Source: Solirubrobacteraceae bacterium (GTDB taxonomy: Bacteria > Actinomycetota > Thermoleophilia > Solirubrobacterales > Solirubrobacteraceae). Taken from it: a stretch of 36,117 bases of DNA. Every line of letters starts with the position of its first letter. Positions within the stretch are counted from its first letter, which is position 1. The notes below the pieces were generated by a model. That model was not told the DNA's origin and searched no databases. It worked only from the letters and a program-made list of their open reading frames with translations. The stretch spans positions 1 through 36,117 of the forward strand of contig JANWLE010000061.1 in assembly GCA_025451035.1 (NCBI GenBank), in the 5' to 3' direction. This document shows, in pieces, positions 4,649-23,013 of the stretch. The translations under genes and the position numbers were made by a program.

Positions 4649-4682
4649 CGCCTCGTCAGGAAAAGCAGCACTTAAACGACGC

Positions 4683-4701: not shown

Positions 4702-4752
4702 TGGCGCAGCCGATTGATAACCCTGCCCAGATCGTAGCCGCTCGAACAGCGG

Positions 4753-5679: not shown

Positions 5680-5767
5680 CGCGCACGAGCGACCAACTGT
5701 CGCTCAGCACGCCAGCCAGGCGGCCGCGAGGCCGCCCCATCCCCAAAAAAGACCCACCTCGAACACA

Positions 5768-5780
5768 ACCAGACAAGGAG
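5768..5780 (+). repeat. 13-bp repeat of the ribosome-binding leader (second copy; first at 5166-5178)
   Basis: ACCAGACAAGGAG occurs twice, at 5166-5178 and 5768-5780. Each copy is followed by six bases ending in TAG and then the ATG of a gene (SRPBCC at 5185, YCII at 5787). It contains the AAGGAG ribosome binding site. This suggests a duplicated translation-initiation segment. Confidence 0.6.
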
Positions 5781-5786
5781 AAATAG

Positions 5787-6104: not shown

Positions 6105-6180
6105 GACCGCGCTCCTGACGGCTGGAAGGTCGTCCTCTGAGAGCCGATCGAGGATCATGCAAGGCCAGCGTCCACCGGCA

Positions 6181-6217
6181 CGGGACGGCCGCCACAGGCA
6201 CATCGGCGGCCGTCCCG
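6181..6217 (+). terminator. Long perfect hairpin upstream of sucC
   Basis: A perfect 13-bp stem (6181-6193 with 6205-6217) and an 11-base loop lies 76 bases after the YCII stop and 44 bases before the sucC ATG. It may terminate the ArsR operon or form part of the sucC leader. There is no T-run, so both readings stay open. Confidence 0.5.
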
Positions 6218-6260
6218 GTAGGGTTTCCGGCGCTCCAACCCCAACGACCCCCAGGACGCG

Positions 6261-7472: not shown

Positions 7473-8392
7473 GCATCCTGATCGACGCTGAGACCACCTT
7501 CATCGTGCAGGGAATAACAGGCCGCGAGGCCGTCAATCTCACGCGCGAGTGCCTGGACTACGGCGCCGGCGCGAAGATCGTTGGCGGCGTCACCCCGGGG
7601 CGCCTCGGCCGCGAGGTGCACGGCGTGCCCGTGTTCGACACGGTCGCGCAGGCCGTCGAGCATCACGGTGCACCGATCGACGGGTCGGTCGTGACGGTGC
7701 CCCCCGCCTTCACCAAGGACGCCGTGTTCGAGGCGATCGAGAACGGCATCAAGCTGATCGTGATCGTCACCGAGCGCATCCCCCGCCGCGACGTGGCCCA
7801 GATGGTCGAGCTGGCCACGCTGCGCGGCGCGCGCATCATCGGCCCCAACTGCCTCGGCATCATCGTGCCCGACGTGATCAAGATGGGTGGCATCGGCGGC
7901 CCCGCCCGTAACGCCGCCCAGGCCTACACGCCCGGTCCGATCGGCGTGATCTCGCGCTCGGGCGGCATGACGACCGAGATGTCCTCCACACTGTCAGCCT
8001 CAGGGCTCGGACAGTCAACGGCCGTGTCGATCGGTGGCGACGCCATCATCGGCTCCTCATACGCCGAGCTGATGCCACAGTTCGAGGCTGACGAGCAGAC
8101 GCAGGGGATCGTCATCTACACCGAGCCGGGTGGCCGAATGGAGGCCGAGCTGGCGCATTGGGTGACAGAGGACAACTCACGGCTGCCGATCGTGGCGTTC
8201 ATGGCCGGGCGCTTCATGGACGAGATGCCAGGGATGAGCTTTGGCCACGCTGGCACGATCGTGGAAGGCAAGGAGGACACCGCCACCGAGAAGATCGCCC
8301 GCCTCGCCCAAGCTGGCATAACGGTGGCTGAGCGAATCGAGGACATCCCCGATTTGATTGGCGCCAAGATCGCAGAGAGGAGCGCGGTATGA
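7469..8392 (+). CDS. sucD: Succinyl-CoA synthetase-like alpha subunit
   Basis: A 307-residue alpha subunit holding the CoA-binding Rossmann domain and the phosphohistidine. The ATG at 7469 overlaps the sucC stop (ATGA), showing translational coupling; a longer open frame from 7352 lies inside sucC and is rejected. Motifs: 'FIVQGITGREAVNLTRE' (CoA binding), 'GGVTPGRLGREVHGVPVF', 'IIGPNCLGIIVPD', 'VISRSGGMTTEMSS', 'GQSTAVSIGGDAIIGSS', the TEPGG equivalent of GEIGG, and the active-site GHAGTI with the phospho-acceptor His at residue 260. Classical SucD ends near 290 residues; this has an extra 'GRFMDEMPGMSF' before the His loop. It is a complete, probably active pair with sucC. Confidence 0.9.
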   Translation: MSILIDAETTFIVQGITGREAVNLTRECLDYGAGAKIVGGVTPGRLGREVHGVPVFDTVAQAVEHHGAPIDGSVVTVPPAFTKDAVFEAIENGIKLIVIVTERIPRRDVAQMVELATLRGARIIGPNCLGIIVPDVIKMGGIGGPARNAAQAYTPGPIGVISRSGGMTTEMSSTLSASGLGQSTAVSIGGDAIIGSSYAELMPQFEADEQTQGIVIYTEPGGRMEAELAHWVTEDNSRLPIVAFMAGRFMDEMPGMSFGHAGTIVEGKEDTATEKIARLAQAGITVAERIEDIPDLIGAKIAERSAV

Positions 8393-8640
8393 GAGCGGAC
8401 GGCACGTTCATCGCGGTCGAGGTCTCCGACGAGGCGGCCGCCGACGCGGCGCTCGCCGCCAAGCTCACGGAAGCCTGTCCGGTGGACATCTACGCCCAGG
8501 CGACTGACGGGGCGCTGGAGCTGGTTGAGCGCAACCTCGACGAGTGCGTGCTTTGCGGTCTATGCCTGGTCGCCGCGCCGCAAGACACCGTCAGGGTGAT
8601 CAAGCTCTATGACGGTGAAGCCTGCCTTGCGGCCGTCTGA
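8389..8640 (+). CDS. Small single-cluster ferredoxin, FixX-like
   Basis: An 83-residue protein whose ATG overlaps the sucD stop (ATGA), so it is made together with the synthetase subunits. It carries ACP near residue 30 and CVLCGLC at 53-59. In two-half bacterial ferredoxins, the 'CP' cysteine of the first half and the CxxCxxC of the second bind the same cluster. Cys30, 53, 56 and 59 thus form a full set for one [4Fe-4S] cluster. The last Cys of the second half is replaced by Ala (VAAP), so the other cluster is lost. This layout is like FixX. It probably transfers electrons for a partner oxidoreductase, perhaps a 2-oxoacid:ferredoxin oxidoreductase or an ETF system not in this window. Confidence 0.8.
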   Translation: MRADGTFIAVEVSDEAAADAALAAKLTEACPVDIYAQATDGALELVERNLDECVLCGLCLVAAPQDTVRVIKLYDGEACLAAV

Positions 8641-8717: not shown

Positions 8718-9842
8718 TCACCACCGCAGCAGCAGCAGCCCGACCGTCACCCCGGGGCCAACCGTGACCATCAATCCGAGCTCTCCCGCACGCGGCTGAC
8801 AGCGGTCGAGCGTGCGCCTCATCACGTAGAAGATCGAGGGGGTGCCGACATTGCCGTGTTCGGCCAGCACGTCGTAGCTGACCGCCACCTCCTCGTTGGA
8901 GAGCGCCAGCGCCTCCTGGATGCTCTCGATGATGCGCCTACCGCCCGGATGGATCAGCCAGTGGTCCACCGCTCCGCGCCCCAAGCCCTCCGCGCCGAGG
9001 AAGTCGTCTACCAGCCCTCCCAGGCCGTCGCCGGCCATCTCGGGAAGCTCACGGACCAAATGAAGGTAGCTGTCCTCGGAGGTCAGATGCATGCGCACCG
9101 CGTCGAGCGTGCCCGGGATCTGGTGGACCTTGGAGGCGATGATCGAGGGGCTCCGCTGGGCTGGCGCTCCGTCCACGGACGAGTCCGACGCGCCGTCGGG
9201 GAATTCGATCAACACGGCGGCGCAGCCGTCGCCGAAGATCGCGGAGCCGACGGTCTTGCTGCGCGTGTCGTCTGGTCGCGCGCCCATGAGGATGCCCGCC
9301 ATGCTCTCGGCGGCTACGACGAGGGCCTTCTTGCCGGGGCACTCCCGCAGCGCCTGCGACGCTAGCCGCATGAGTGGCACGGCGCTCGCACAGCCGACCC
9401 CCAGCACGTGGTACTTATCGGTGGAGGGATCCATCTCGTAGTAGTCCACGAGCCGGTGAGCGATGGTGGGACCTCCGAGCGAGTACAGGCTCGCGCTGAC
9501 CACCACGCCGAGCTCGGAGGGATCGACCTCAAGCGCATCGACCGCCCGTACGGAGTCCCCGAAAAGCTGGTCCTCGATCGCGAGCGTCCGTCCCTGAACG
9601 GTCGTGGCCAGAAACTCATCAGTCAGCCTCAGCTGGCGACGCTGGATCCCGCAGCGGCCGAAGATGCGCTGAGCGAACTCGTCGTCCGCCAAGCCGAGAA
9701 GCTCGAGCACATCCTCCTGGGTGAAGGACGTCTCGGGTTCGGCCAGCTGAAGCCCGCTGATGAGCGGAAGGCCAGCGTTCAGGTCGTTTTGCGCGAGTTG
9801 CCCTGTCTGCAGGGTAGGCAGGTCGGCTCCTATAGCCTTCAA
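8718..9842 (-). CDS. Type III polyketide synthase (chalcone/stilbene synthase family)
   Basis: A 374-residue homodimeric condensing enzyme that extends an acyl-CoA starter with malonyl-CoA units and cyclises the product, usually to a phenol, resorcinol or pyrone. The Cys-His-Asn triad is visible: Cys151 in GVGCASAVPLM, His298 in 'HWLIHPGGRRII' and Asn331 in 'EHGNVGTPSIFYV'. HPGG is typical of type III PKS rather than KAS III. Its C-terminus 'LGLMVTVGPGVTVGLLLLRW' carries the family's GPG loop. The TTG at 9842, with GGGGGAT upstream, is the likely start, although the N-terminus is uncertain. It is divergent from the sulfotransferase gene and convergent with the ferredoxin. The starter and product cannot be read from sequence. 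Confidence 0.9.
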   Translation of the reverse strand: MKAIGADLPTLQTGQLAQNDLNAGLPLISGLQLAEPETSFTQEDVLELLGLADDEFAQRIFGRCGIQRRQLRLTDEFLATTVQGRTLAIEDQLFGDSVRAVDALEVDPSELGVVVSASLYSLGGPTIAHRLVDYYEMDPSTDKYHVLGVGCASAVPLMRLASQALRECPGKKALVVAAESMAGILMGARPDDTRSKTVGSAIFGDGCAAVLIEFPDGASDSSVDGAPAQRSPSIIASKVHQIPGTLDAVRMHLTSEDSYLHLVRELPEMAGDGLGGLVDDFLGAEGLGRGAVDHWLIHPGGRRIIESIQEALALSNEEVAVSYDVLAEHGNVGTPSIFYVMRRTLDRCQPRAGELGLMVTVGPGVTVGLLLLRW

Positions 9843-10124
9843 GAGAGATCCCCCGGGGTTATTCGGGTCGTGTCAAGGACATGGGGACGGGTCGGACAGC
9901 GAGGATACGAAAACAACCCGTCGACAGCCGCAAAAGAGCTGCTTCTCTACGAGATTTCTTCATAGACTCTTCATCCTATCCACATGCTTCTTCACATACT
10001 TCTCGGCGGGCGCTCTTGAAGAGATGCCCTCTTTCGAAGGAAGAGCGCACCGATCAGACCGTCAGCTTCGCCAATATTCACCAGCCGAAGGGATGACAAC
10101 TGCCATGAGCACGGAGGTACGAGG
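9843..10124. promoter_or_regulatory. Divergent intergenic region between PKS and sulfotransferase
   Basis: A 282-base gap between two diverging genes. It contains a stretch (about 9940-10030) that is clearly richer in A/T than the rest of the window. A shared regulatory region is likely by position, but I see no promoter boxes that I trust. A seven-codon reading frame (10104-10127) overlaps the sulfotransferase ATG and may be a leader or chance. Confidence 0.4.
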
Positions 10125-10883
10125 ATGAGACTCATTGGAGCTGGCCTGCCACGCACCGGCACGCTTACGCAGAAGGTCGCGCTGGAGATGCTGGGCTTCG
10201 AGCCGTGCTACCACTGGGTCAACGTCCTCGCTGACCTCAACCAGGTTGACGTCTGGAACCGCGCGCTCGACGGAGAGCCGGTGTGGGACGAGGTCTTCGA
10301 CGGCTGCCACGCCACCGTCGACTGGCCCGGAGGCTACTTCTGGCGCGAGCTGATGGACTACTACCCCGACGCCAAGGTCCTGCTCAGCGTGCGCGATCCC
10401 GAGAAGTGGGAGCCGAGCTTCAGAGAGACGATCTGGAACATGGGCCACGGCGAGAATCTGATCAACTTGGTTTCCAGCGCCCGCGCCCTCATCGACCCGC
10501 AATGGAGCCGCTACGTGCAGCTCGTCGATCGCATGTTCTGGAGCGGCAAGGGCACGTTCGCCGCAAGCGGGCACGAACTGCCCGAGCAGCTGATCGCCGA
10601 GTTCAAGCGCCACAACGAAGAGGTCGAAGCGACCGTGCCGCCGGAGCGGCTGCTCGTGTGGAACGTCAGTGAAGGCTGGGAGCCGCTGTGCGAGTTCCTC
10701 GAGGTCCCCGTGCCGGACGAGCCGCTGCCGCACGCCAACGACCGCGAGACCTTCCTCGGACGAGTCGTCGACGGTGCCCTCGCATCGCTACAGACATGGC
10801 GCGCCAGCGAGACGCAGGCCGGCGAGACGCACGGCGCCGCAGTAGGTGACGCCGACGCGCGCGATGCCGCCGCGCCGGCCTAG
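10125..10883 (+). CDS. Sulfotransferase family protein (PAPS-dependent)
   Basis: A 252-residue cytosolic protein expected to move a sulfuryl group from PAPS to an alcohol, phenol or amine. The 5'-phosphosulfate loop is 'GAGLPRTGTLTQKVALEML' (about residues 5-23), with RTGT in the P-loop-like turn. The 3'-phosphate motif follows in 'KVLLSVRDPEKWEPS'. 'LGFEPCYHW' and the 'HNEEVEATVPPERLLVWNV' block with 'GWEPLCEFLEVPVPDEPLP' are typical of the Sulfotransfer_4 type. GGAGG lies 7-11 bases before the ATG. The last 40 residues are low-complexity (Ala, Asp, Gly). It lies 23 bases before the arylsulfotransferase gene, probably in one transcript. The acceptor is unknown; a PKS-derived phenol is an attractive guess. 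Confidence 0.88.
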   Translation: MRLIGAGLPRTGTLTQKVALEMLGFEPCYHWVNVLADLNQVDVWNRALDGEPVWDEVFDGCHATVDWPGGYFWRELMDYYPDAKVLLSVRDPEKWEPSFRETIWNMGHGENLINLVSSARALIDPQWSRYVQLVDRMFWSGKGTFAASGHELPEQLIAEFKRHNEEVEATVPPERLLVWNVSEGWEPLCEFLEVPVPDEPLPHANDRETFLGRVVDGALASLQTWRASETQAGETHGAAVGDADARDAAAPA

Positions 10884-10906
10884 CAAGCCAAGCCGCTGCC
10901 CCTGAC

Positions 10907-12793
10907 ATGAGCAGAGCGCGCCTTCTCCTGACCCTGCTCACAGTCATCGCCGCGATCGCAGCGGCGGTCGTGTTCGGCAGCGGAGTTCTGCACAAACCGC
11001 AGCCGGCCCGGACGCGCTCGCCGGCATGCCTGCCGGACGCGCAGGATCACACCGCCAAGCTGGAAGGACTGCCCCTCTTCGTATCGCCGGCCCCAGCGAG
11101 CGCCACCGCGAGCCCGTACACACAGATCAGCTTCCTGGGGTTGCCACCCCGGCAGATCCGCGAGGTGTCCGTCGTCGGTCAGCGCAGCGGCACACACACG
11201 GGACATCTCCGCGGCTACCACCAGGGAGACGGGGTGAGCTTCCTGCCCGACCACCACTTCCTCGACGGCGAGCGCGTAGACGTGCGCGCGGTGATCGGCG
11301 CGAGCGCCCAAGGCAAGAAGGTCGCGTTCTCCTTCCGCGTGGATACGCCTTATCCGACGCTGGGGGTGGCGGAATTCCCCAACCCGACAGCCGCCGCGGC
11401 CGACTACGAGAGCTTCCACACGCTCCCAGGAGTCCAGGCGCCGATCCTGACCGTCACGAGACCCGACCGAGATCCCACGGCGGGCGACATCTTCACCACC
11501 AACGGACCGGGCCCCGGGAAGTACGGGCCGCTGATCTACACGCCGCAAGGCCGACTCGTCTGGTTTGAGCAACTCCCGCACGGCGCCAGCGCCGTGAACC
11601 TCAACGTACAGAGCTACGAGGGCCACCCTGATCTGACTTTCTGGCAAGGCAAGGTCCTCTCGCTCGGCTTCGGGCAGGGAGAAGACATCGTCATGAACTC
11701 CCACTACCAGACGGTCGCCCGTGTCACCGGCGGCAACGGTCTGCAGGCGGACCTGCACGACTTCCGGCTCGCTCCCGGCGGGATCGCGTACATCACGGCA
11801 TACAACCCGATCCTCTGCGACCTATCCGCAGCCGGGGGAGCCAGCGACGGGTCGATCGTGGACACGGCGATCCAGGAGATCGACATCGCGACCGGTCTGG
11901 TGCGCTGGGAATGGCACAGCCTCGACCACATCGGTGTCAGCGAATCGCAGACCGCGGCTAGCACGAACACGGCCCCATGGGATTACTTGCATCTGAACTC
12001 GATCGACCTCGAGCCGGACGGGGATCTCCTTCTTTCCGCCCGCAGCACCTGGGCCGCCTATCAGCTCGAGCGCGGCACGGGCAGGATCCTCTGGCGCCTC
12101 GGCGGCAGCAAAAGCTCGTTCAAGCTGGGCCCAGGCACCGCCACCGCCTGGCAGCACGACGGGCGCATGCTGCCCAACGGGGAAATCACTTTCTTCGACA
12201 ACGGTTCCAACCCGCCGGTGCACAGCCAGTCACGGGCCCTGCGGATCGCGCTCGACCCCGCGACCCGCAAGGCCTCTCTGCGCTCCGTCTATACGCACCC
12301 CGGCCCGCTGCTCTCGGTCAGCCAAGGCAACGCGCAGACGCTCTCCGACGGCAACACGGTCGTTGGCTATGGCTCGGTGCCGCAGATCAGCGAGTACGAC
12401 AGGCATGGCTCGCTGCTGTTCGACGCCCACCTGGCCCTCGGCATGGACTCCTATCGCGACCTCCGCTTTCCCTGGAAAGGGCGGCCGCTGAGCCCGCCGA
12501 CAGTACACGCCAACCTGAACAGCACAGACGAAGAGACGATCCTCTACATGAGCTGGAACGGCTCGACCGAAGTCGCGTCATGGCGCGTGCTGGCCGGACG
12601 CCGCCGCCAGTCGCTCACACCGCAGATCACGACTCCCACCAGCGGCTTCGAGAGCACGGCGATACTGCCAGCGCGCTGGACGTTCGTGGCGGTGCAGGCG
12701 CTGGACTCGACAGGACGTGTCCTGTCGACTTCGCAGCCGACCCCCGTAGCGAGCTACGTCTCGTCCTTTCCGGGCGCTGGAAGCTCCGGTTGA
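10907..12793 (+). CDS. Secreted/anchored arylsulfotransferase (ASST_2-type beta-propeller)
   Basis: A 628-residue protein with an N-terminal hydrophobic helix (about 5-24), an Ig-like region (about 70-148) and a propeller domain (about 160-620). ASSTs move sulfate directly from one phenol to another without PAPS, outside the cytoplasm. Candidate active-site residues conserved with the fused copy at 13860 are His284 (DLHDF), His362-x-Asn364 (LHLNS), Arg379 (SARSTWA) and His417 (WQHDG). The H-x-N to Arg spacing (17) resembles E. coli AssT His356/Asn358/Arg374 as I recall it. Also typical are RILWRLGG and 'NGEITFFDNG'. It follows the sulfotransferase by 23 bases. Enzyme activity of this branch is inferred from family membership. 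Confidence 0.85.
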   Translation: MSRARLLLTLLTVIAAIAAAVVFGSGVLHKPQPARTRSPACLPDAQDHTAKLEGLPLFVSPAPASATASPYTQISFLGLPPRQIREVSVVGQRSGTHTGHLRGYHQGDGVSFLPDHHFLDGERVDVRAVIGASAQGKKVAFSFRVDTPYPTLGVAEFPNPTAAAADYESFHTLPGVQAPILTVTRPDRDPTAGDIFTTNGPGPGKYGPLIYTPQGRLVWFEQLPHGASAVNLNVQSYEGHPDLTFWQGKVLSLGFGQGEDIVMNSHYQTVARVTGGNGLQADLHDFRLAPGGIAYITAYNPILCDLSAAGGASDGSIVDTAIQEIDIATGLVRWEWHSLDHIGVSESQTAASTNTAPWDYLHLNSIDLEPDGDLLLSARSTWAAYQLERGTGRILWRLGGSKSSFKLGPGTATAWQHDGRMLPNGEITFFDNGSNPPVHSQSRALRIALDPATRKASLRSVYTHPGPLLSVSQGNAQTLSDGNTVVGYGSVPQISEYDRHGSLLFDAHLALGMDSYRDLRFPWKGRPLSPPTVHANLNSTDEETILYMSWNGSTEVASWRVLAGRRRQSLTPQITTPTSGFESTAILPARWTFVAVQALDSTGRVLSTSQPTPVASYVSSFPGAGSSG

Positions 12794-12823
12794 GGCGATT
12801 GTTGGGGTGACTGCAGGAAGCGA

Positions 12824-12982
12824 CTAGTAGGACGGCGGGCGGGATGGCAACTTGTGCGTGGAGGTGCTGCTGCCGCTTTTCGTCGTGGGGCCCGCAGATT
12901 TCCCGCCACACCCCGCGATCGCCACGGTGGCCGCCACGATGGCCAGCAGCGTCAGCGCGGTAATTAGCGGCGTTCGTCTCAT
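12824..12982 (-). CDS. Small putative lipoprotein, 52 residues
   Basis: An ATG at 12982 is preceded by AGGAG at a proper distance. It opens a frame with positively charged residues (MRRTP), a hydrophobic stretch (LITALTLLAIVAATVAI) and the lipobox AIAGC followed by GG. The mature part is short and Ser/Thr-rich and ends RPPSY. Design and ending resemble the next lipoprotein (13126-13539). The signal peptide plus ribosome binding site make it credible. Its function is unknown. It lies head-on to the arylsulfotransferase gene at 10907. Confidence 0.6.
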   Translation of the reverse strand: MRRTPLITALTLLAIVAATVAIAGCGGKSAGPTTKSGSSTSTHKLPSRPPSY

Positions 12983-13125
12983 CGGCCTGACTCCTGTTGG
13001 TCGTTTGGGGGCTTCTGCCTCACCCTACCAGGGGCTCGCGGGGGCCAATCGTCTCGGGCCGAGGCCTCCACCCATCCAGCTAGCCCGCTGCGGAAAAGCC
13101 GCCTTCGGGCGCTCGGCGTCGTTTC

Positions 13126-13539
13126 CTAATAGGCGCTCGAAGGCGTGGAGGTGGTGTTGGCGGGCGTCGTCGTCGTGGACGTTTTCGTGGGAGCGCCGGT
13201 GGTCGCGGGCGGCGTAGCGGTTTTTTCGCTTACCTTCGGTTCGCTGCTTGCAGGCCTCGGCGCGGGCGCGGCGGTCGTCCTCACCGGTTCAGTAGACCTG
13301 GCGACGGGCGCCGCCGCCGTGGTCGAGGATTCCACTGGCACAGCACTAGCCGCCGTGGTTTTGTGGGACACCGTCGTTTTGCGGTGCCTGGGCCTCGGAG
13401 CCACCTTCTTGGCGTGGCGGCTCTGAAGCGCGCTCTTTGCGGGCTGCGGCAGGTGCGTGGAGCTCACGTGCGAGCCGCTACCGCCGCAGCCTGTCAGCGC
13501 GACCGCGGCGACGGTCATTGTCAGCAACGCTCGTTTCAT
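13126..13539 (-). CDS. Thr/Pro/Ala-rich putative lipoprotein
   Basis: A 137-residue protein with signal 'MKRALLTMTVAAVALTGC' carrying the lipobox ALTGC, then GGSGS. The rest is low-complexity: a basic part (about 37-60, RHAKKVAPRPRHRKTT) and a Thr/Pro/Ala/Ser-rich tail ending PSSAY. AGGAG precedes the ATG. No fold is recognisable; it looks like an extended surface or cell-wall-spanning linker protein. With the 52-residue lipoprotein downstream on the same strand it forms a pair between the two ASST genes, so both may assist in that system. That link is inference. Confidence 0.75.
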   Translation of the reverse strand: MKRALLTMTVAAVALTGCGGSGSHVSSTHLPQPAKSALQSRHAKKVAPRPRHRKTTVSHKTTAASAVPVESSTTAAAPVARSTEPVRTTAAPAPRPASSEPKVSEKTATPPATTGAPTKTSTTTTPANTTSTPSSAY

Positions 13540-13859
13540 GGTCCGGGCTCCTAGTTGTCGCTCAAGAACTTCCTTCTCGAGTCAGATTACAGGAGGCCAG
13601 CCACTGATCCGCCACATCAGCCGAGCCGCGCACGGCACACGCCGTCAGATACCCAAACCGGCGTCCTAGCGCCACTTGTAAGGCAACAACGGCCGGCGCG
13701 TTCTGTACGATCAGAGCGCTGCCCATGCCGGAGCGGGGCGATTTTCCGCGCCAGGCATCGTCGCCGCTCGAGACCCCTACTAGTCTGGGCTTTGCTCAGT
13801 TCCGGGACATCCGGTACGGCCGACGAAGGGATCCAAGCTCTTGAACGGGATCGAGGCTG
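13540..13859. other. 320-base divergent gap, no gene seen
   Basis: It lies between the leftward lipoprotein gene and the rightward fusion gene and probably carries both promoters. Short open frames here lack ribosome binding sites and recognisable content. I find no convincing promoter boxes, repeats or hairpins. Confidence 0.4.
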
Positions 13860-16800
13860 ATGCACAAGCACGACGGGACGGTAAAAGCAGGGGACGAGAC
13901 GGGCGAGACTACGGTGGGCGGCCTCGCCGTCGCTGACCACGGTCACATCCAGACAGTACCCGCGGAGTCAGCCCCAGCAGCTAAGCGGCTGGGCCCGCTC
14001 AGGCTGGGGTCACGCTCCAGTTGGCTGCTAGCCGTCTGCTGCGCGGCTCAGTTCATGGTCATCCTCGACCTGAGCATCGTCAACGTGGCGCTGCCCTCGA
14101 TCAAGTTCAGTCTGGGGTTCACCGCGCCGGAACTGCAATGGATCGTCGACGCGTATGCGATCACGTTTGCCGGCTTTTTGATGCTCGGGGGTCGAGCAGC
14201 CGATCATTTCGGGCAGCGGCGCACGTTCGTCCTGGCGCTGTTCTTGTTCGCCCTCGCTTCGCTGGCGGGCGGCATAGCGTCAGACCGCAGCATGCTCATC
14301 GCCGCGCGCGCCTTCCAAGGCTTCGGCGGCGCGCTGATGGCGGCCTGCTCCCTGGCGATCATCACGGCGTCGTTTCCACCGGGCCCCAAGCTCAACCGCG
14401 CTATCGGCCTGTGGGCTGCCATGAATGGCGCGGGCGGCGCGGCCGGCATGCTTTTCGGCGGGCTGCTCACGGAAGTCAGCTGGCGCTGGGTGCTATTGAT
14501 CAACCCCCCGATCGCGATCGCCGCCGCGCTGGTCGCCTACGTCGTTGTGCAGGAGCGCCGCCGGGCCGGACACGGCAACTTTGACCTCGCTGGCGCACTT
14601 ACACTGACGATCGGCCAGATGGTCCTGGTGTACGGGGTCGTGGAAGCCGGCCTGGCAGGCTGGGACACGCTGGCGGCGCTCGGCCCGATCCTCGGAGGCG
14701 CCGCGCTGCTTGTCGTATTCGGCGTGATCGAGACGCGCCTGGCGTCCGCCCCGCTGATTCCCTTCAAGGAGCTCACCAAGCCGTTGCGGACCGCCAACAA
14801 CATCGTGCTGCTGTTCAGCGCGTCGCTGTTTCCCATGTGGTTTGTGAGCTCTCTCTACCTGCAGCAGGTGCTAGGTCTCTCGCCTCTGGACACAGGCCTC
14901 ATCTTCCTGCCGATGACACTGATGATCATGCTGGTCGCCTCTCGCGCCGGCAAGCTCGTCAACAGCTTCGGCGTGCGGCCCGTGCTGGGCGGCGGCTTGA
15001 TCATGCTGACAGCGGGGATGCTGCTGCTCGCGAGGATCGGCGCCGCCGGCAGCTCGATCGTGTACGTGATGATCCCCGGCTTGCTCACCGCCGCGGGGAT
15101 CGCGATGTCGATCGTCCCCTCCACGATCGCCGCGACCCAGGGATCCAAGGAGGGGCAGGCGGGTCTAGCGTCCGGCCTGGTGAACACCTCGCGCCAGATC
15201 GGAGGTGGCCTCGGGCTCGCGGTCCTTGTCACGCTCGCCACCCAGCGCACCACCCACCTGATTGGCGCGGGACAGCAGGTGCCGCAAGCGTTGACCAACG
15301 GCTTCCGCCTCGCCTACCTGATTGGCGCTGGGCTGGCCGGGGCGGCCGCGCTCGTCACCTTCACGTCGCTGCCCAAGCCCGCGGCGGCGAGCGCCGCACG
15401 GCGCCTCATGGCCACGATTGGGGTGATCGTCGCGGCATTCGTCGGGGTCTGCCTGTCGATCAGCACTCACGGCTCCCCCGTCGGCGCATACATCACCAAT
15501 GGCGCCTACAGCTTCCTCTCCGCGCCCTCGCTTCACCCGCCGAAGCTGCACGCTATCGCCTCGACGGCTACCGGCAGGCTCGCGCCGGGTTACATCTTCA
15601 CCGCCGACTTCTACGACCTCAACTACCCGCCGATGGTCGGCCAGAGTGGACCGCTGATCCTGGACAACCAGCTGCAGCCAGTCTGGTTTGAGCCGGTGCC
15701 CGAAAAGTACGTCGCCGCGAACCTCGGCCTGCAGACCTATCAGGGCAAGCCCGTCCTGGCGTGGTGGCAGGGTGACATCACAAGCACCGGGCAAACCGAG
15801 AGCGGCGAAGACGTCATCGTCAACCGGCACTACCAGAAGGTCGCGACGCTGAGGGCCACGGGCGGCTGGGTTCTCACCCTGCACGAGATCGCGATCGACG
15901 GGGAAGACGCATGGGTCACCGCGAACAAGAACGTGCCGATGGACCTCTCCAAGTACGGCGGCGCATACAACGGCGCGTTGATCGACTCAGCTGTGCAGGA
16001 GTACAACCTGAAGACCGGCAAGCTGCTATTCAACTGGGACGCGCTGCAGCACATCCCGCTGAACGACTCCTACGCGACCCTGCCGACGAACGGGTTTCCC
16101 TGGGATGCCTACCACGTCAACGCCATCGACGTCACCGGCAACGGCACCGTCGTCGTCTCGATGCGCAACACCTGGGCGGCCTATGCAGTGAACACCTCCA
16201 CCAGCAAGATCGAATGGACGCTCGGCGGCAAGCACTCGAGCTTCAAGTTCGGCTCAGGCGCCGAGTTTGAGTGGCAGCACAACGTGGTGGTGTATCCCGG
16301 CACCCCGCTGGTCACGCTGTTTGACGACCACTGCTGCCAGATCACCAGTGGCGGCAAGTATGTCGAACCGAACGGTCCGTCTCGCGGGCTCGTGCTCAGG
16401 CTGGATCAGCGTGCGCACACCGCTACGCTCGCCGGCCAATACACCCGTGCCGGGGACTTCGACACCGACTACATGGGCAGCATGGAGCCACTGCCAAACG
16501 GCAACGAGTTCGTCGGCTGGGGAGCTGAACCGTACTTCTCCGAGTACGACACCTCAGGCCACCCGCTCCTGGACGCTGCTTTCCCCAGGCCAGATCTCAC
16601 CTACAGAGCGGTCCGGGAGCCATGGGTGGGGCTGCCTCTGTACCCGCCGGCTGGAGCTGCCCGTCACAGCGCTGACAAGACCACTGTGTACGCGAGCTGG
16701 AACGGCGCCACCCAGGTCGCCTCGTGGCGTGTGCTGGCGAGGTCCGCCGCACGCCGACAGGTCATCGTGGCGAGCAAGCCGAAGTCAGGGTTTGAGACGG

Positions 16801-16892
16801 CAATCCCGGTGCCAGGGGGATATCAGCGCTTCATGGTCCAGGCACTCGACTCACACGGCCGGACGATCGGAACCTCCCGGCCGTTCGCCTAG
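13860..16892 (+). CDS. Fusion of a DHA2-type MFS exporter with an extracytoplasmic arylsulfotransferase domain
   Basis: One unbroken 1010-codon frame. Residues 1-50 are a hydrophilic leader. Residues 55-505 form a 14-helix DHA2 (EmrB/QacA) exporter with the D1-like motif 'LDLSIVNVALPSI' (69-81), motif A 'GGRAADHFGQRR' (110-121) and a degenerate motif C at about 196-203. A 15th helix follows (about 516-535). Residues 560-1010 are an ASST_2-like propeller closely resembling the 10907 protein. Shared candidate catalytic residues are His675 (TLHEI), His752-x-Asn754 (YHVNA), Arg769 (SMRNTWA) and His807 (WQHN). Fourteen-helix exporters keep both ends in the cytosol; the extra helix would place the propeller outside, where ASSTs work. 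This supports a real fusion that couples efflux of a phenol to sulfate transfer. The substrate is unknown. Confidence 0.88.
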   Translation: MHKHDGTVKAGDETGETTVGGLAVADHGHIQTVPAESAPAAKRLGPLRLGSRSSWLLAVCCAAQFMVILDLSIVNVALPSIKFSLGFTAPELQWIVDAYAITFAGFLMLGGRAADHFGQRRTFVLALFLFALASLAGGIASDRSMLIAARAFQGFGGALMAACSLAIITASFPPGPKLNRAIGLWAAMNGAGGAAGMLFGGLLTEVSWRWVLLINPPIAIAAALVAYVVVQERRRAGHGNFDLAGALTLTIGQMVLVYGVVEAGLAGWDTLAALGPILGGAALLVVFGVIETRLASAPLIPFKELTKPLRTANNIVLLFSASLFPMWFVSSLYLQQVLGLSPLDTGLIFLPMTLMIMLVASRAGKLVNSFGVRPVLGGGLIMLTAGMLLLARIGAAGSSIVYVMIPGLLTAAGIAMSIVPSTIAATQGSKEGQAGLASGLVNTSRQIGGGLGLAVLVTLATQRTTHLIGAGQQVPQALTNGFRLAYLIGAGLAGAAALVTFTSLPKPAAASAARRLMATIGVIVAAFVGVCLSISTHGSPVGAYITNGAYSFLSAPSLHPPKLHAIASTATGRLAPGYIFTADFYDLNYPPMVGQSGPLILDNQLQPVWFEPVPEKYVAANLGLQTYQGKPVLAWWQGDITSTGQTESGEDVIVNRHYQKVATLRATGGWVLTLHEIAIDGEDAWVTANKNVPMDLSKYGGAYNGALIDSAVQEYNLKTGKLLFNWDALQHIPLNDSYATLPTNGFPWDAYHVNAIDVTGNGTVVVSMRNTWAAYAVNTSTSKIEWTLGGKHSSFKFGSGAEFEWQHNVVVYPGTPLVTLFDDHCCQITSGGKYVEPNGPSRGLVLRLDQRAHTATLAGQYTRAGDFDTDYMGSMEPLPNGNEFVGWGAEPYFSEYDTSGHPLLDAAFPRPDLTYRAVREPWVGLPLYPPAGAARHSADKTTVYASWNGATQVASWRVLARSAARRQVIVASKPKSGFETAIPVPGGYQRFMVQALDSHGRTIGTSRPFA

Positions 16893-17453: not shown

Positions 17454-18668
17454 TCAGATCTTGTGCCGCTGCAGGAGCTTGCGGCCGATCACCATACGCT
17501 GGATCTCGGAGGTGCCCTCGCCGATCAGGAGCAACGGCGCATCCCGGTAAAGCCGCTCGATCTCGTACTCCTTGGAGTATCCGTAGCCGCCGTGGATGCG
17601 GAAGGACTCCTCCACACAGAAGCGGCCCGCCTCCGAGGCGAACAGCTTGGCCATGCCGGCCTCTAGGTCTGAGCGCTCGCCCGCGTCCTTGAGCCGTGCC
17701 GCGCGCATCGTCAACAGCCGCGCGGCGTCCACCTGAGTGGCCATGTCCGCGAGCTTGAATTGGATCGCCTGATGTTCGGCGATCGCCTTGCCGAACGTCT
17801 TGCGCTCCTGGGAGTAGCGCAGCGCGAGCTCGAGTGCTCGCTGCGCGATGCCGACACCGCGGGCAGCGACGTTCACCCTGCCAACCTCGAGCGCGTCCAT
17901 CATCTGCGCGAACCCTTTGTTCAGACCTGCCGCCTCGCCTCCAAGCACGTTCTCTGACGGACAGCGGTAACCGTCGAATATGAGCTCGGTCGACTCCACG
18001 CCCTTGTAGCCGAGCTTTTTGATCTTCGGCGGGACGGTCAGGCCGGCATAGGCGCCGGTGTTCTCGCTGGCGCCTCCCTCCTTCTCCGCGATGAAGCACG
18101 TGAAGCCGACGTGGCGTGGCTGAGCGTCCGGGTCTGTCTTGACGAGCACGAACACCAGCGATGACATCAACCCATTGGTCACCCACATCTTCTGGCCGTT
18201 GATCTCGTACGTGCCGTCGTCCATCTTCTTGGCCGAAGTCTTGATCGCCTGCACGTCTGAGCCGAGCTCGGGCTCAGATAGCGAGAACGCGGCGCGGATC
18301 TCGCCGGTCGCCATGCGCGGCAGGTACTTCTGCTTCTGCTCCTCGTTGCCGAACTTCATCAACAGGTACGAGCCGATGAAATGGGTGTTGATCACCCCCG
18401 AGATCGAGATCCACCCTCGCGAGAGCTCCTCGACGATCATCGCGTAGGTGGTCAGGTCGAGCCCCATGCCGCCGTACTCCTCGGGGATCGTCACCCCGAA
18501 CAGGCCGAGCTCCTTCATCTGGTCGACGATCGGCGCCGGAAAGATGTCCTCGTGGTCGTAGTGCTCGGCGTTGGGGAGGATCTGCTCGTCGGCGAACTGG
18601 CGCACCATCTCGGTGATCGCCTTCTGCTCGTCGTTCATTTCTGATGGTGAAGAGGCGGCTACAGCCAT
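17454..18668 (-). CDS. Acyl-CoA dehydrogenase
   Basis: An FAD enzyme that desaturates acyl-CoA at alpha-beta and passes electrons to ETF. It has the standard three-part fold in 404 residues. N-terminal helices include 'LGLFGVTIPEEYGGMGLD'. The FAD-binding signature is 'AAFSLSEPELGSDVQAIKT', followed by KMWVTNG. The C-terminal helical part has 'GRVNVAARGVGIAQRALELA', 'ERKTFGKAIAEHQAIQFKLADM' split across the dimer interface, and 'RIHGGYGYSKEYEIERLYRD'. The catalytic Glu is in 'LIGEGTSEIQRMVIGR'. I chose ATG 18668, with GGAG about 14 bases upstream; the open frame to 18716 adds 16 basic residues unlike the family. Substrate chain length cannot be read. It is divergent from the acyl-CoA synthetase and followed by SCP2. 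Confidence 0.94.
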   Translation of the reverse strand: MAVAASSPSEMNDEQKAITEMVRQFADEQILPNAEHYDHEDIFPAPIVDQMKELGLFGVTIPEEYGGMGLDLTTYAMIVEELSRGWISISGVINTHFIGSYLLMKFGNEEQKQKYLPRMATGEIRAAFSLSEPELGSDVQAIKTSAKKMDDGTYEINGQKMWVTNGLMSSLVFVLVKTDPDAQPRHVGFTCFIAEKEGGASENTGAYAGLTVPPKIKKLGYKGVESTELIFDGYRCPSENVLGGEAAGLNKGFAQMMDALEVGRVNVAARGVGIAQRALELALRYSQERKTFGKAIAEHQAIQFKLADMATQVDAARLLTMRAARLKDAGERSDLEAGMAKLFASEAGRFCVEESFRIHGGYGYSKEYEIERLYRDAPLLLIGEGTSEIQRMVIGRKLLQRHKI

Positions 18669-18831
18669 TGGTGAAACACTCCGCGGTCGGGGTCTGCGAT
18701 CGGCTCGAGAGGGCATGGGAACGGCTCTGTCACGTGCACGTCCGATGACGCCCTGCCCTCACGGTGAGCTAGATTCGGACCGCACACAGCCGAGGTTCAG
18801 ATGAACCTGAGAACCATCGGAGGATATCGAG

Positions 18832-18996
18832 ATGAGCCGTACCGAGACACCGTGGTCAGCGCCGCTTCGCCCAGCTGGCGGTTGGCTGGGTGCGCACAGA
18901 TCGGGCCAGCGATCGCTGCCGAGCCGCGCGGCGCCTGCCCGAGGCCAGCTCGACGCGACGCTTTTGCGTATGCAAGCCGACCAAATGTTGAGATGA
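18832..18996 (+). CDS. 54-residue small ORF coupled to acyl-CoA synthetase
   Basis: A short frame starting at ATG 18832 has GGAGGA at 18819-18824, the strongest ribosome binding site in this gap. It runs without stops and ends in a TGA that overlaps the synthetase ATG (ATGA at 18993-18996). The product is basic and Arg/Ala/Pro-rich (MSRTETPWSAPLRPAGGWLG at its start) with no signal peptide or helix I recognise. It may be a real small protein or a leader ORF that feeds ribosomes to the next start. The evidence is positional only. Confidence 0.45.
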   Translation: MSRTETPWSAPLRPAGGWLGAHRSGQRSLPSRAAPARGQLDATLLRMQADQMLR

Positions 18997-20486
18997 ACTT
19001 CAGCCGGGACATCCTCGAAGCGAGGAGCCCGAGCGTGCGCGCGCTCGTCGAGCTGCCCCGTGAAAATGACCGGCGAGAGTGGAGCTTCGGCGAAATAAGC
19101 GAGGGCACGTCCGTGTTCGCCGCGCTGCTCGCCGCGCGGGGCGTGGAACGCGGGGACGTGGTGATGACGCTGATCGGCAACCGGCCAGAGTGGGTATTCA
19201 CGATGATGGCGTGCTTTCGGATTGGCGCAGTCGCCCTCCCCTGCACTGAGCAGCTGCGCGCCAAGGACCTCTCGCTGAGGATCGCCGTGGCCCGACCGCG
19301 GCTGATCGTCGCCGACGTGCGCAACCGCGGGGAGCTCGAGGCATCAGGTCCCGTATGCGAGGTTATGTGGGTCGGCGCTGAGCCGCTGCTCGGGCAATCC
19401 GTGGGCGGGCTCGATATGCCGCCATTTGCCGAACTGGAGCCGGAGGACCCATGTCTGATCACCTTCACCAGCGGGACGGTGGGAGAGCCCAAGGCTGTCG
19501 TGCATGGCATGCGCTACCTCTACGGTCAGCGCACCCAGGCACACGGATGGCTGGAGGCCCGCGCCGAGGATCTTGTGTGGTGCACAGCCGCCTCCGGGTG
19601 GAGCAAGTCGGCGCGGAACGTCTTCATTGCGCCGTGGCTGAACGGCGCGAGCGCACTGCTGCACGACGCGCGCTTTGACCCCCACGAGCGTCTGGAGCTG
19701 ATCGAGCGCGAGCAGGTCACGGTGCTTTGTATGGCACCCACCGAGTACCGGGTGATCGCCAAGCGCGCCTCACTGCGAGCGCTGCCGAGCCTGCGCGGCA
19801 TGGTCGCAGCCGGCGAGGCGCTCAACCCGGAGGTGCTGCACGCTTGGAAAGCAGCGACCGGCCTCGACATACGCGACGGCTACGGTCAGACGGAGACCGG
19901 CCAGATGACCGGAATGGCCGTCGGCGCGGGCGTGCGTGCCGGCTCGATGGGACGACCTTTGGAAGGTGTGCGCCTGTGGATCGAAGACGGTGAGCTGGTC
20001 GCGGATCCCGAGACGGTGCCGACCTTCTTCCTCGGATATCTCGGCGAGGGGGTCAACCGCGACGAGCGGGGTGCGTGGGAGATCACGGATCGCCGCGCAC
20101 AGGGGCCTTGGCACACCGGCGACCGTGTCCGCGAAGACGAGGATGGCTACCTGTTCTTCGAGGGTCGCGCCGACGACGTCATCATCTCCGCCGGCTACCG
20201 CATCGGGCCGTTCGAGGTCGAGTCGGCGCTAGTGGCGCACCCCGCCGTGGCCGAGGCAGCTGCCGTGGCCTCACCGGACGAGGAGCGGGGGTCTGTCGTG
20301 CGGGCGGTCGTGGTACTCCGCGACGGGCAGGCACCCTCGCCGCAGCTTGCCAAGGAGCTACAGGAGCACGTCAAGCACCAGACCGCCCCGTACAAGTACC
20401 CACGTATCGTGGAGTTCGTGCCGGAGCTGCCGAAGACCTCGAGCGGCAAGATCAGGCGAGCCGAGCTGCGCGACGCACGCGGCTGA
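18993..20486 (+). CDS. Acyl-CoA synthetase (AMP-forming, medium-chain/MACS-like)
   Basis: A 497-residue adenylate-forming ligase making acyl-CoA from acid, ATP and CoA. The P-loop is TFTSGTVGEPKAVVHG (about 157-172). Also present are the MACS-like 'SGWSKSARNVFIAPWLNGAS', the A5 motif DGYGQTETGQMTG, 'WHTGDRVREDEDGYLFFEGR' (A7) with ADDVIISAGYRIGPFEVES (A8), and the A10 PKTSSGKIRR with catalytic Lys at about 486. The start at ATG 18993 overlaps the small upstream ORF and leaves an N-terminus (MNFSRDILEARS) matching the family's 'FNFARDVLD'. An in-frame ATG at 18801 would add 64 residues without family likeness. It is divergent from the acyl-CoA dehydrogenase, so the locus may activate and then oxidise one acid. 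Confidence 0.92.
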   Translation: MNFSRDILEARSPSVRALVELPRENDRREWSFGEISEGTSVFAALLAARGVERGDVVMTLIGNRPEWVFTMMACFRIGAVALPCTEQLRAKDLSLRIAVARPRLIVADVRNRGELEASGPVCEVMWVGAEPLLGQSVGGLDMPPFAELEPEDPCLITFTSGTVGEPKAVVHGMRYLYGQRTQAHGWLEARAEDLVWCTAASGWSKSARNVFIAPWLNGASALLHDARFDPHERLELIEREQVTVLCMAPTEYRVIAKRASLRALPSLRGMVAAGEALNPEVLHAWKAATGLDIRDGYGQTETGQMTGMAVGAGVRAGSMGRPLEGVRLWIEDGELVADPETVPTFFLGYLGEGVNRDERGAWEITDRRAQGPWHTGDRVREDEDGYLFFEGRADDVIISAGYRIGPFEVESALVAHPAVAEAAAVASPDEERGSVVRAVVVLRDGQAPSPQLAKELQEHVKHQTAPYKYPRIVEFVPELPKTSSGKIRRAELRDARG

Positions 20487-20545
20487 GGCTGCTGCCTGGA
20501 TACGGCCTGCAGGTGGTGGCTATCTCAGCGATCGCGCTCCAGCGG

Positions 20546-20932
20546 TCAGAGCGCGACGATCGCGTCTATCTCGACGAGCGCGCCCTTCGGCAGCGCCGCG
20601 ACACCGACCGTGACCCGCGCCGGCGGGTCCGTCTCGAAAAACGAGGCGTAGACCTCCCCCAGCTCGGCGAAACGCGAAAGATCGGTCATGTACACGGTGA
20701 GGCGAACGGCGCGGGCCAGCGACGTCCCGGCCGCGGAGCAGACCACCGCCAGGTTCTCGAGGCAGCGCCGTGTCTGCTCAGCGACAGTCGCGCCGCTCAC
20801 CTCGCCCGTATCGGGGTCAAGCGGTATCTGCCCCGAGCAGAACAGCAGCTCACCGGCACGCACGGCGTGGCTGTACGGGCCGATCGCGGCGGGAGCCGCG
20901 TCGGCTGTGATCCTCTGGCGCTCCACGCTCAC
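20546..20932 (-). CDS. ridA: RidA family enamine/imine deaminase (YjgF/YER057c/UK114)
   Basis: A trimeric protein that hydrolyses reactive enamines or imines from PLP enzymes. In 128 residues it shows 'AAIGPYSHAVRAGELLFCSG' split by the usual GPYS motif, 'QIPLDPDTGEV', 'EQTRRCLENLAVVCSAAG', 'RLTVYMTDLSRFAELGEVY' and the C-terminal 'PPARVTVGVAALPKGALVEI'. The Arg of PARVTV is the position of the substrate-binding Arg of E. coli RidA. I chose GTG 20932 (or GTG 20926), which gives the usual size; the open frame to 20977 is longer than needed. It is convergent with the acyl-CoA synthetase gene and divergent from the peptidase gene 74 bases away. Confidence 0.9.
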   Translation of the reverse strand: MSVERQRITADAAPAAIGPYSHAVRAGELLFCSGQIPLDPDTGEVSGATVAEQTRRCLENLAVVCSAAGTSLARAVRLTVYMTDLSRFAELGEVYASFFETDPPARVTVGVAALPKGALVEIDAIVAL

Positions 20933-21006
20933 CGCAGCGAGCCTACACCCACGGCCCTGGGAGGGACAGCGCGACACGAGCGCAACTATCGAATAGATTC
21001 CGACTA

Positions 21007-22920
21007 GTGCTACGGATGGTCACAGGGCTAGCGAGCCTGAGCCTCGCCACGGTCGCGCTCACCTGGACGGTCACAGCCGTCGCCGCCGGCCAGATCCAGT
21101 TCGAGCAGTGCCCCGATACCAACAACTTCGCGTGCGGGCATCTGAATGTGCCGCTGGACCCGTTCGCCGCCGGCAGTGAACCCATCACGTTGGCGATGCG
21201 CCGGCACCTCGCGCCGGTCGGCACCGCGAAAGACGCGGTGATCGCGCTCGCGGGTGGACCCGGGCAGGCAGCGATTCCATTCGCCGAACAGTTCGATCGG
21301 CTGCTCGGGCCGATCCTCGCCACACGCGACCTGATCGTGTTCGACCAGCGCGGCATCGGGCTCTCGCATCCGTTGTCCTGCGCTGCCTTCGAACATATCG
21401 GCGGGCGGGAACCCTCACCTCTGGCGATAGGCATATGCGCGCGGCAGATCGGGCCCTCGCGGCGCTTCTACACGAGCGCCGACACGGTGGCCGACATCGA
21501 GGCGATCCGTCAGGCAGGCGGCTACGAAAAGCTCGTTCTCTACGGCACCTCCTACGGCACGAAGGTCGCCGAGCTCTACGCGCAGACCTACCCGCAGAAC
21601 GTCCAAGCGCTGGTGCTCGACTCGGTGGTTCCCGTAGACGGGCCGGACCCGCTGCGCCGCGACTCGTTCGTCGCGATCCGGCGGGTCTTGCGTGAGCTGT
21701 GCGCAGCGCACGCCTGCAGGCACGTCACACCCAGCCCAGTAGGAGACCTGGCGCGCGTGCTGAGAATGATGCGCCGCAGACCGCTTCACGTCCGCGCGGT
21801 GGGCGATCACGGCCACCGCAGAAGCTTCAGGGTCTCCGCCGAAGACCTGCTGCAGCTCCTCTACGAGGGCGACTTCAATCCTCTTCTGCGCGCGGCGATG
21901 CCCACCGTGCTGCACTCGGCCGCCCAGGGCGATACCGCGCCGCTCGCCAGGCTTCTCCTTAGCGGAGGAGGCGCCGAAGAAAGCGAAGAAGACGAACGGG
22001 AACGGCTCAGCGAGGGCTTTGACTCTCCGCTCTATCTAGCGACGACATGCGAGGAGCAGCAATTCCCGTGGAGCCGAGCAGCAAGCCCAGCCGTGCGCAT
22101 ACGCGAAGCACGCACGCAGCTCAGCAAGCTGCCAGCCGGCACTTTCTCTCCCTTCACCGCGGCGGACGCGCTGGCCGACAGCGACGTCCCGATCTGCTCG
22201 CAATGGCCCTTTACGACGGCCGCCCCGGAAACAAAAAGCACCGCGATGCCGGCGGTCCCGACGTTGATCTTCAGCGGCGAAGAAGACATCCGCACACCCA
22301 CGGCAGGCGCGCAGCAGCTCGCGCGCTCGATCCCCGGGGCTCATCTGCTGGTCGTTCCATACGCCGGCCACGCGGTGCTGGCCAGCGACCCCCGTCCCTG
22401 TCCGGTCGATGCCCTGCGCGCCTTCTTTGCCGGCAAGCAGATCGCTGCCTGCCGCGATCACAGGCCATCCAGCCATCGTCTGGTTCCATTGGCGCCTGGC
22501 GCGTTGGCGGACATATCGCCAGCACGCCACTACGTCGGCAAGCGCGGACGCACGTTGCAGGCGGTGGCGCTCACCCTCGAAGACCTCTCACGACAGCTCA
22601 CCATGCGCGGCGAGGCGCTGCTCGGCCTGCTGGGGGTCACGGTGAACGTCGGCGGGCTACGCTCCGGCTGGGTGGGCTGCTCGGCCCATTCGCTGCGTTT
22701 TCACGGCTACTCCTATGTTCCGGGCGTGCAGATCTCTGGCACGGTCACGATTGGTAGCGCGACGTTGCTCATCGGCGGCAGCTCCGCAGCCCGCGGCCGG
22801 TTGAGGCTGGGTCCAAAAGGTCAGCTCAACGGTACGCTCGAAGGCATCGCGGTGCACCTGTCGAGATCCCGCGCGCCGCTCGTGGGTGTCGCTGGCGCGC
22901 GGGATGCGAGCGGTGCCTAG
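21007..22920 (+). CDS. Secreted alpha/beta-hydrolase, TAP-like (tripeptidyl aminopeptidase) family, copy 1
   Basis: A 637-residue exported serine peptidase-like enzyme. The signal peptide is about residues 4-27 (ending AVAAG). The oxyanion region is 'AVIALAGGPGQAAIPF' (78-92), then 'RDLIVFDQRGIGLSHPL'. The nucleophile Ser182 is in LYGTSYGTKVAELYAQ, Asp427 in SGEEDIRTPT and His455 in PYAGHAVL, as in the TAP-like C-terminal domain. Cysteines after the signal suggest disulfides. The last about 120 residues form an added beta-rich domain shared with copy 2. The start is GTG 21007 or ATG 21016; no clear ribosome binding site. It is followed by copy 2 after a short gap, in the same direction. It probably releases short peptides from protein N-termini. 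Confidence 0.88.
   Translation: MLRMVTGLASLSLATVALTWTVTAVAAGQIQFEQCPDTNNFACGHLNVPLDPFAAGSEPITLAMRRHLAPVGTAKDAVIALAGGPGQAAIPFAEQFDRLLGPILATRDLIVFDQRGIGLSHPLSCAAFEHIGGREPSPLAIGICARQIGPSRRFYTSADTVADIEAIRQAGGYEKLVLYGTSYGTKVAELYAQTYPQNVQALVLDSVVPVDGPDPLRRDSFVAIRRVLRELCAAHACRHVTPSPVGDLARVLRMMRRRPLHVRAVGDHGHRRSFRVSAEDLLQLLYEGDFNPLLRAAMPTVLHSAAQGDTAPLARLLLSGGGAEESEEDERERLSEGFDSPLYLATTCEEQQFPWSRAASPAVRIREARTQLSKLPAGTFSPFTAADALADSDVPICSQWPFTTAAPETKSTAMPAVPTLIFSGEEDIRTPTAGAQQLARSIPGAHLLVVPYAGHAVLASDPRPCPVDALRAFFAGKQIAACRDHRPSSHRLVPLAPGALADISPARHYVGKRGRTLQAVALTLEDLSRQLTMRGEALLGLLGVTVNVGGLRSGWVGCSAHSLRFHGYSYVPGVQISGTVTIGSATLLIGGSSAARGRLRLGPKGQLNGTLEGIAVHLSRSRAPLVGVAGARDASGA
21519..21623 (+). repeat. 105-bp tract identical to 23526-23630
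   Basis: These 105 bases are the same at every position in the two tandem peptidase genes, including third codon positions. They cover the nucleophile motif GTSYGTKVA. Immediately outside, the genes diverge at both DNA and protein level. This is the pattern of a recent gene-conversion tract. Confidence 0.9.
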
Positions 22921-23013
22921 ACACCAGCGCATCATCCGTTTAGCGCAGACGCGTCGAGAGGCTCGCCCTGCGCCGCAACCGCCGGAGTGACGCTATTGTC
23001 GGTGTCGAGGCAC

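Follow-up and report, generated by a model that had tools for sequence, protein, structure and literature searches.

The stretch of DNA analysed here (the window, 36,117 nt: positions 1 to 36,117 of contig JANWLE010000061.1, assembly GCA_025451035.1, Solirubrobacteraceae bacterium) encodes a protein that joins a 14-helix exporter of the major facilitator superfamily (MFS), a 15th membrane helix and an arylsulfotransferase (ASST) propeller with a C-terminal beta-sandwich. This composition is confirmed for the open reading frame (ORF) at 13860-16892. What the computation yields is the fusion, its conservation, its predicted fold, its active-site residues and its gene linkage, and on these grounds the protein is read as the component at the membrane in a two-step sulfation relay like that known from caprazamycin, with a probability of roughly 0.55.

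An exporter and an arylsulfotransferase in one chain

The reading frame is uninterrupted from its ATG, and both halves match their Pfam families above the curated cut-offs, MFS_1 over residues 61-452 (E 1.4e-47) and Arylsulfotran_2 (PF14269) over residues 625-907 (E 1.9e-39, 136.3 bits against a cut-off of 27). The AlphaFold2 model (31 sequences; mean predicted local distance difference test score 77.2, predicted template modelling score 0.70) places in order the 14 MFS helices (49-85 to 474-503), a separate helix at 510-533, the linker, propeller strands from residue 578 and the beta-sandwich at 931-1005. Its top Foldseek match is Cpz4 (9kf4, E 2.9e-28, template modelling score 0.83 of target), with the Cpz4 entry 9kf6, titled as a reaction intermediate, likewise among the matches, followed by EfpA (8ufd, E 3.0e-18, 0.85 of target). 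The propeller sequence is also nearest to Cpz4 among solved structures (E 5.7e-84). Pfam, AlphaFold2 and Foldseek all find the MFS fold with 14 transmembrane helices, which is common to the fusion and the DHA2 exporters EfpA, QacA and EmrB; the PDB matches of these exporters stop at the MFS fold without any enzyme domain, whereas the fusion continues into an ASST. The best NCBIfam model for the MFS half is that of the DHA2 EmrB subfamily (TIGR00711), but its 199.8 bits lie below the cut-off of 230.2. D70, R112, D115 and R150 are kept in all 30 fusions covering those positions. Motif C with its proline is the antiporter motif; the proline is absent from the corresponding stretch of 44 fusion ORFs (a redundant set) and likewise from the 40 commonest patterns of MFS-only relatives, and a motif C change peculiar to the fusions was therefore rejected.

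Distribution was followed in two overlapping sets. The family set comprises 146 genomes of the window's family, with at most five candidates scored per genome; the metagenome-assembled genome (MAG) set comprises the best 80 of 581 loci from a scan of named genomes, and its fusion count is a lower bound. Full-length fusions occur in 28 of the 146 family genomes, including the window's own, and the 27 others are 57-78% identical to it. They span three genera: the window's genus g1 (18/24), g17 (6/28) and g18 (4/4). The MAG set holds at least 30 fusion ORFs, together with a broken copy (L076) and a copy cut by a contig end (L077), in taxa labelled Solirubrobacterales, Acidimicrobiales, Nocardiopsaceae and unplaced actinobacteria. 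On the other hand, when 396 genomes drawn from the phylum were scored, with at most two candidates per genome, only the window's genome gave a fusion at E <= 1e-180. A one-off oddity is rejected given the orthologs, though the fusion is rare overall. The full-length orthologs in both sets also rule out, in practice, a frameshift or misassembly, including one between residues 505 and 560, which the sequence-only reading of this DNA had named among the findings that would refute it. That reading had claimed a single 1010-codon exporter-ASST frame, and the uninterrupted ORF, the two Pfam domains and the fold model agree with it. Its expectation that close relatives would share the fusion held in 17 of the 23 other genomes of the genus and failed in G093, G101, G103 and G105, in which none was found among the candidates scored. 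In G111 and G112, of the same genus, a contig-cut fusion remains, and the fusion of G084 is split by a contig boundary whose two ends overlap exactly over 197 bases.

Both termini of 14-helix MFS proteins are cytosolic, so that a single added helix would put the propeller outside. The hydropathy peak lies at residues 516-534. Summed over 31 sequences, the 16 residues that precede helix 15 contain 100 lysines plus arginines versus 26 in the 16 after it (106 versus 26 with longer N-side stretches). Additionally, an export signal or anchor was recognised in 48 of the 52 ORFs for stand-alone ASSTs (12 Tat-like, 14 lipobox, 22 hydrophobic anchor or signal), the scan being one of crude regular expressions and hydropathy in which the class labels of individual rows are rough; three of the four ORFs without a signal are cut by contig ends. 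Helix count, charge bias and exported relatives together predict an extracytoplasmic propeller, as the sequence-only reading had supposed from the extra helix.

The part of the review PMC13426309 that treats the ASST of Escherichia coli names its active-site residues, with His436 as the sulfated one, and describes a homodimer with an N-terminal beta-sandwich. This enzyme (3elq, PF05935) is distant from the fusion propeller and has no transporter, but a profile of 28 ASST domains pairs H752, N754, R769 and H807 of the fusion with its His356, Asn358, Arg374 and His436. The match is weak (chain E 0.0014; i-Evalue 0.054 for the His436 stretch and 370, non-significant alone, for the short segment that holds His356, Asn358 and Arg374), and it counts because it falls exactly on the named catalytic residues; it stops short of His252 and settles no column for Thr501. 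The strong match to Cpz4 aligns the same motifs, and H675 to a His. These five residues, which answer to the His, His-x-Asn, Arg and His candidates proposed earlier, are kept in 31 of 31 fusions; in the mixed 28-sequence set, H675, H752, N754 and H807 occur in 28/28 and R769 in 26/28. Sulfotransfer independent of 3'-phosphoadenosine 5'-phosphosulfate (PAPS) is a mark of ASSTs that the propeller may share. The vicinal pair Cys825-Cys826, which follows the FDD turn of the propeller, is present in 34/34 fused domains and in 1/52 stand-alone ASSTs, the sister of the fused clade.

Table 1. Features of the fusion gene and its neighbours (window positions)
Feature	Position	Strand	Remark
Type III polyketide synthase, Cys/His/Asn motifs	8718..9842	-	Divergent from sulfotransferase
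PAPS-type sulfotransferase (Sulfotransfer_4), Cpz8-like	10125..10883	+	23 nt before stand-alone ASST
Stand-alone ASST, 628 aa, hydrophobic N-terminal anchor, Cpz4-like	10907..12793	+
MFS-ASST fusion protein, 1010 aa	13860..16892	+	ATG start, no internal stop
DHA2-type MFS half, residues 49-503, 14 helices	14004..15368	+	Nearest solved: EfpA, then QacA, EmrB
15th membrane helix, residues 510-533	15387..15458	+	Positive residues on N-terminal side
Linker, residues 534-577	15459..15590	+	Model confidence mostly low
ASST propeller, residues 578-920, Cpz4-like	15591..16619	+
His675 codon	15882..15884	+	Aligned to Cpz4 His; probable His252 equivalent (pairing inferred)
His752-x-Asn754 codons	16113..16121	+	Partners of His356, Asn358
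Arg769 codon	16164..16166	+	Partner of Arg374
His807 codon	16278..16280	+	Partner of sulfated His436, E. coli ASST
Vicinal Cys825-Cys826	16332..16337	+	In every fusion sequence examined
C-terminal beta-sandwich, residues 931-1005	16650..16874	+	Covered by Cpz4 alignment

Origin of the fused clade

The MFS tree groups 35 fused halves with the contig-cut copy of G084 in one clade (support 100/100), whose sister consists of three unfused MFS proteins lying beside ASST genes in three genomes. In the ASST tree, 34 fused domains lie on one side of a branch with a support of 90/47, which is not firm, and the stand-alone ASST of locus L142 (6021-7625) is their sister (100/100). Both trees are consistent with a single fusion event. 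The ASST tree excluded the contig-cut fusions L065, L067 and L070, the ORFs of L049, L052 and L076, loci fetched twice, ORFs of fewer than 430 residues and rows aligned over 380 residues or less; the MFS tree excluded rows of fewer than 350 residues and loci fetched twice. L132 was left out of both trees and L128 out of the MFS tree, though neither is a repeat. Helix 15 is best read as the anchor that once formed the N-terminus of a stand-alone ASST, because the L142 sister protein has a hydrophobic stretch directly before its ASST domain and the split MFS relatives lack a 15th helix by hydropathy.

In the split arrangement at L139 (9649-13256), the unfused MFS gene has a stop that overlaps with the start of the ASST gene following it; this ASST is of the lipobox type and belongs to another branch than the fused ones. 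The ASST family is expanded in these organisms: the window's own genome (2.87 Mb) gives seven matches to PF14269, and several Solirubrobacterales have two or three additional ASST genes close to the fusion (L058:14662-21977, L057, L069, L101).

Sulfotransferase linkage in the window and across genomes

The sulfotransferase upstream of the fusion in the window has as its nearest solved structures Cpz8 (9kf1, 43% identity) and Cpz8 with 3'-phosphoadenosine 5'-phosphate (PAP; 9kf2). The stand-alone ASST that follows it, whose nearest solved structure is Cpz4, is 40% identical to the fused domain over 423 columns. In the type III polyketide synthase (PKS) the Cys, HPGG and GN motifs are all present, and its best alignment is to Pks11, an alpha-pyrone synthase.

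In the family set the PKS was found in 25 of 146 genomes, and in all 25 it lies within 1 kb of a Sulfotransfer_4 gene. The sulfotransferase occurs in 25/28 fusion genomes versus 22/118 others and the PKS in 17/28 versus 8/118, the cut fusions of G084, G111 and G112 being counted among the 118. Two Sulfotransfer_4 genes stand by one type III PKS in four places (G086:C27:30766-33311, G111:C23:9857-12492, G088:C42:26671-29210 and G099:C26:64707-67524).

For the fusions of the MAG set, the closest gene upstream that lies on the fusion's strand and belongs to one of the sought families was identified, and the counts that follow hold among the matches listed from its best 80 loci. For 30 fusions this gene is an ASST in 13 cases and a sulfotransferase in 12, with none seen in five, four of which have less than 600 nt upstream. 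The 12 fusions with a sulfotransferase are all labelled outside Solirubrobacterales (as are L060 and L071, which have no usable upstream DNA). Between the end of the sulfotransferase and the start of the fusion's MFS match lie 56-174 nt. An in-frame start of the fusion overlaps the sulfotransferase stop as ATGA or GTGA in nine of these 12, so that the fusion appears to be coupled in translation to this sulfotransferase, a relative of the one in the window. The broken copy L076 has a sulfotransferase upstream too. Other orders exist: fusion, ASST, sulfotransferase in G076 and G084, and in L129 a sulfotransferase 2.1 kb upstream of the fusion with no ASST match between them; L142 has no gene of the sought families upstream on the same strand. 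Among 47 control loci with MFS-only genes (median 15 kb), none has an ASST, sulfotransferase or PKS match within the stretch of DNA covered.

Several other genes were noted around the fusions. Downstream in the window (17454-24987) lie an acyl-CoA dehydrogenase, an AMP-ligase and two TAP-like hydrolases, parts of which recur in L054, L056, L133 and L148, and at 2836-8392 a MaoC hydratase, an HpcH/HpaI-type lyase and a succinyl-CoA-ligase-like pair may belong to a CoA-thioester pathway. In L062 the sulfotransferase-fusion pair is flanked by a TauE/SafE-type gene and an inositol-monophosphatase-family gene (7413-8525 and 13028-13897), the latter from a family that includes PAP phosphatases.

A proposed sulfation relay across the membrane

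In the proposed relay, the type III PKS would make a small phenolic or enolic compound, which the cytosolic Cpz8-like sulfotransferase would load with sulfate from PAPS. Export of this sulfated compound would fall to the MFS half, with protons as the most likely driving force. On the outer side, the Cpz4-like propeller tethered to the exporter would accept the sulfate on His807 as sulfo-histidine and then donate it to an acceptor in the medium or on the cell surface, while the neighbouring stand-alone ASST may act as a second, anchored transferase with another acceptor. PAPS would thus stay inside and the activated sulfate would cross on a small carrier; an adenosine 5'-phosphosulfate kinase present in the window's own genome would provide for the PAPS supply. 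From location to transport, cargo, direction, chemistry and acceptor, these steps are what we infer from the genes. An already sulfated small donor is the more likely cargo than a free phenol, because the fusion is linked to a Cpz8-like sulfotransferase, which in turn is linked to the type III PKS. The sequence-only reading, in which a phenol is exported and sulfate transferred at the exit, stands in part: the fusion, the predicted outside position of the propeller and its kept residues are supported, and the reading of helix 15 and the cargo are the parts that change.

The two-step chemistry and the enzyme types are already known. According to published accounts, Cpz8 uses PAPS to sulfate a triketide pyrone, and the sulfate is then handed by Cpz4 to the caprazamycin pathway (PMC4257720, PMC6731281); PMC12142624 names Cpz6, Cpz8 and Cpz4. 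The window holds the same three gene kinds (type III PKS, PAPS-type sulfotransferase and ASST) within about 8.2 kb (8718-16892), and Cpz8 and Cpz4 are the nearest solved relatives of its sulfotransferase and ASSTs, and its PKS is of type III like Cpz6, with the Cys, His and Asn motifs present. Unlike the Cpz4 chain in the PDB, a 472-residue propeller without a transporter, one Cpz4-like domain of the window is fused to an exporter, and nucleoside antibiotic genes were not recognised among the window ORFs tested. Transporter-enzyme fusions in general offer an analogy, in that they place a transporter and an enzyme of one flow in one chain. The exporter-ASST fusion, its conservation, its split sister state and its sulfotransferase coupling appear new here, as they were not found described in the open-licence literature; this literature, which lacks most subscription papers, gave no paper on an MFS-sulfotransferase fusion, none for the structures 9kf4 and 9kf6 and none linking a transporter.

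Several observations weigh against the relay. DHA2 exporters are promiscuous, so that the cargo cannot be read from the sequence, and we know of no activity measured on the fused clade. In the window itself the stand-alone ASST and the fusion are 1.07 kb apart (12794-13859), and two small ORFs in this gap (12852-13217 and 13555-13860) have no Pfam match. The 13 MAG fusions whose nearest upstream gene is an ASST all belong to Solirubrobacterales or Solirubrobacteraceae, and the cut copy L077, labelled Actinobacteria, also has an ASST upstream and not a sulfotransferase. The PKS is rejected as a universal partner, being present in only 17 of the 28 fusion genomes; some genomes carry the pair of PKS and sulfotransferase on a different contig from the fusion, and no PKS was seen around the 13 loci examined with a sulfotransferase upstream (among the matches listed), where the carrier would then differ or come from elsewhere. 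Ten ORFs near the fusion in L061, L062, L066 and L073 are regulators, housekeeping and other genes, with no PKS among them. No sulfotransferase match was found in the fusion genomes G061, G090 and G094, all at most 75% complete. Because the genomes are related by descent, the gene counts are not independent observations and their p-values come out too small.

Different cargoes and directions have been considered. The MFS half might export a free phenol, either the cell's own product or a toxic soil phenolic, which the propeller would sulfate at the exit from another aryl sulfate, yielding a polar product that cannot return. The drug exporters among the DHA2 relatives would suit such a role, many phenols are reported to be sulfated by E. 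coli-type ASSTs, and the isolate names palsa, bog, fen and Chersky read as peat and permafrost. Such habitats are rich in phenolics. However, the start-stop overlaps with a PAPS-type sulfotransferase described above suggest a cargo that is sulfated inside, and a free-phenol exporter is on balance unlikely. The transporter could instead move the acceptor, a lipid or natural product, while the sulfated donor arrives otherwise and the tether serves only to hold the enzyme close to its product; EfpA, which is the nearest MFS protein of solved structure, has an entry that contains lipid by its title (8x6x), and the caprazamycins, acceptors of Cpz4, are lipid-like nucleosides. Nevertheless, genes for the biosynthesis of a larger acceptor were not recognised among the ORFs tested between the PKS and the fusion, and the gene coupled to the fusion elsewhere would be a donor-making sulfotransferase, which leaves acceptor export with a low probability.

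The propeller may, on the other hand, strip sulfate from the exported compound or merely bind it. A ping-pong reaction has two separate steps whose net direction would depend on what is present, and the vicinal Cys pair is special to the fused clade; a dead enzyme, however, would hardly have kept the five presumed active-site residues in every one of the 31 fusions, and a reversed or inactive propeller is considered very improbable. The relay with a sulfated donor remains the preferred reading.

A further and tentative step, to which we give somewhat less than even odds, is that a dedicated small polyketide carries activated sulfate over the bacterial membrane, charged from PAPS inside, exported by the MFS half and discharged by the propeller of the same protein. 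PAPS is cytosolic, so that extracellular sulfation needs a route for activated sulfate through the membrane, and to our knowledge there is no explanation of why the caprazamycin pathway routes its sulfate through a polyketide. That the second enzyme is fused to a transporter, and that this fusion is apparently coupled in other genomes to a relative of the first enzyme, points to membrane crossing as the answer. If true, the polyketide would be the sulfate counterpart of the lipid carriers for sugars, and it would explain why caprazamycin uses two sulfotransferases and a polyketide in place of one enzyme. The relay is testable with three or four genes, and it would offer a handle on surface or secreted sulfates in soil actinobacteria.

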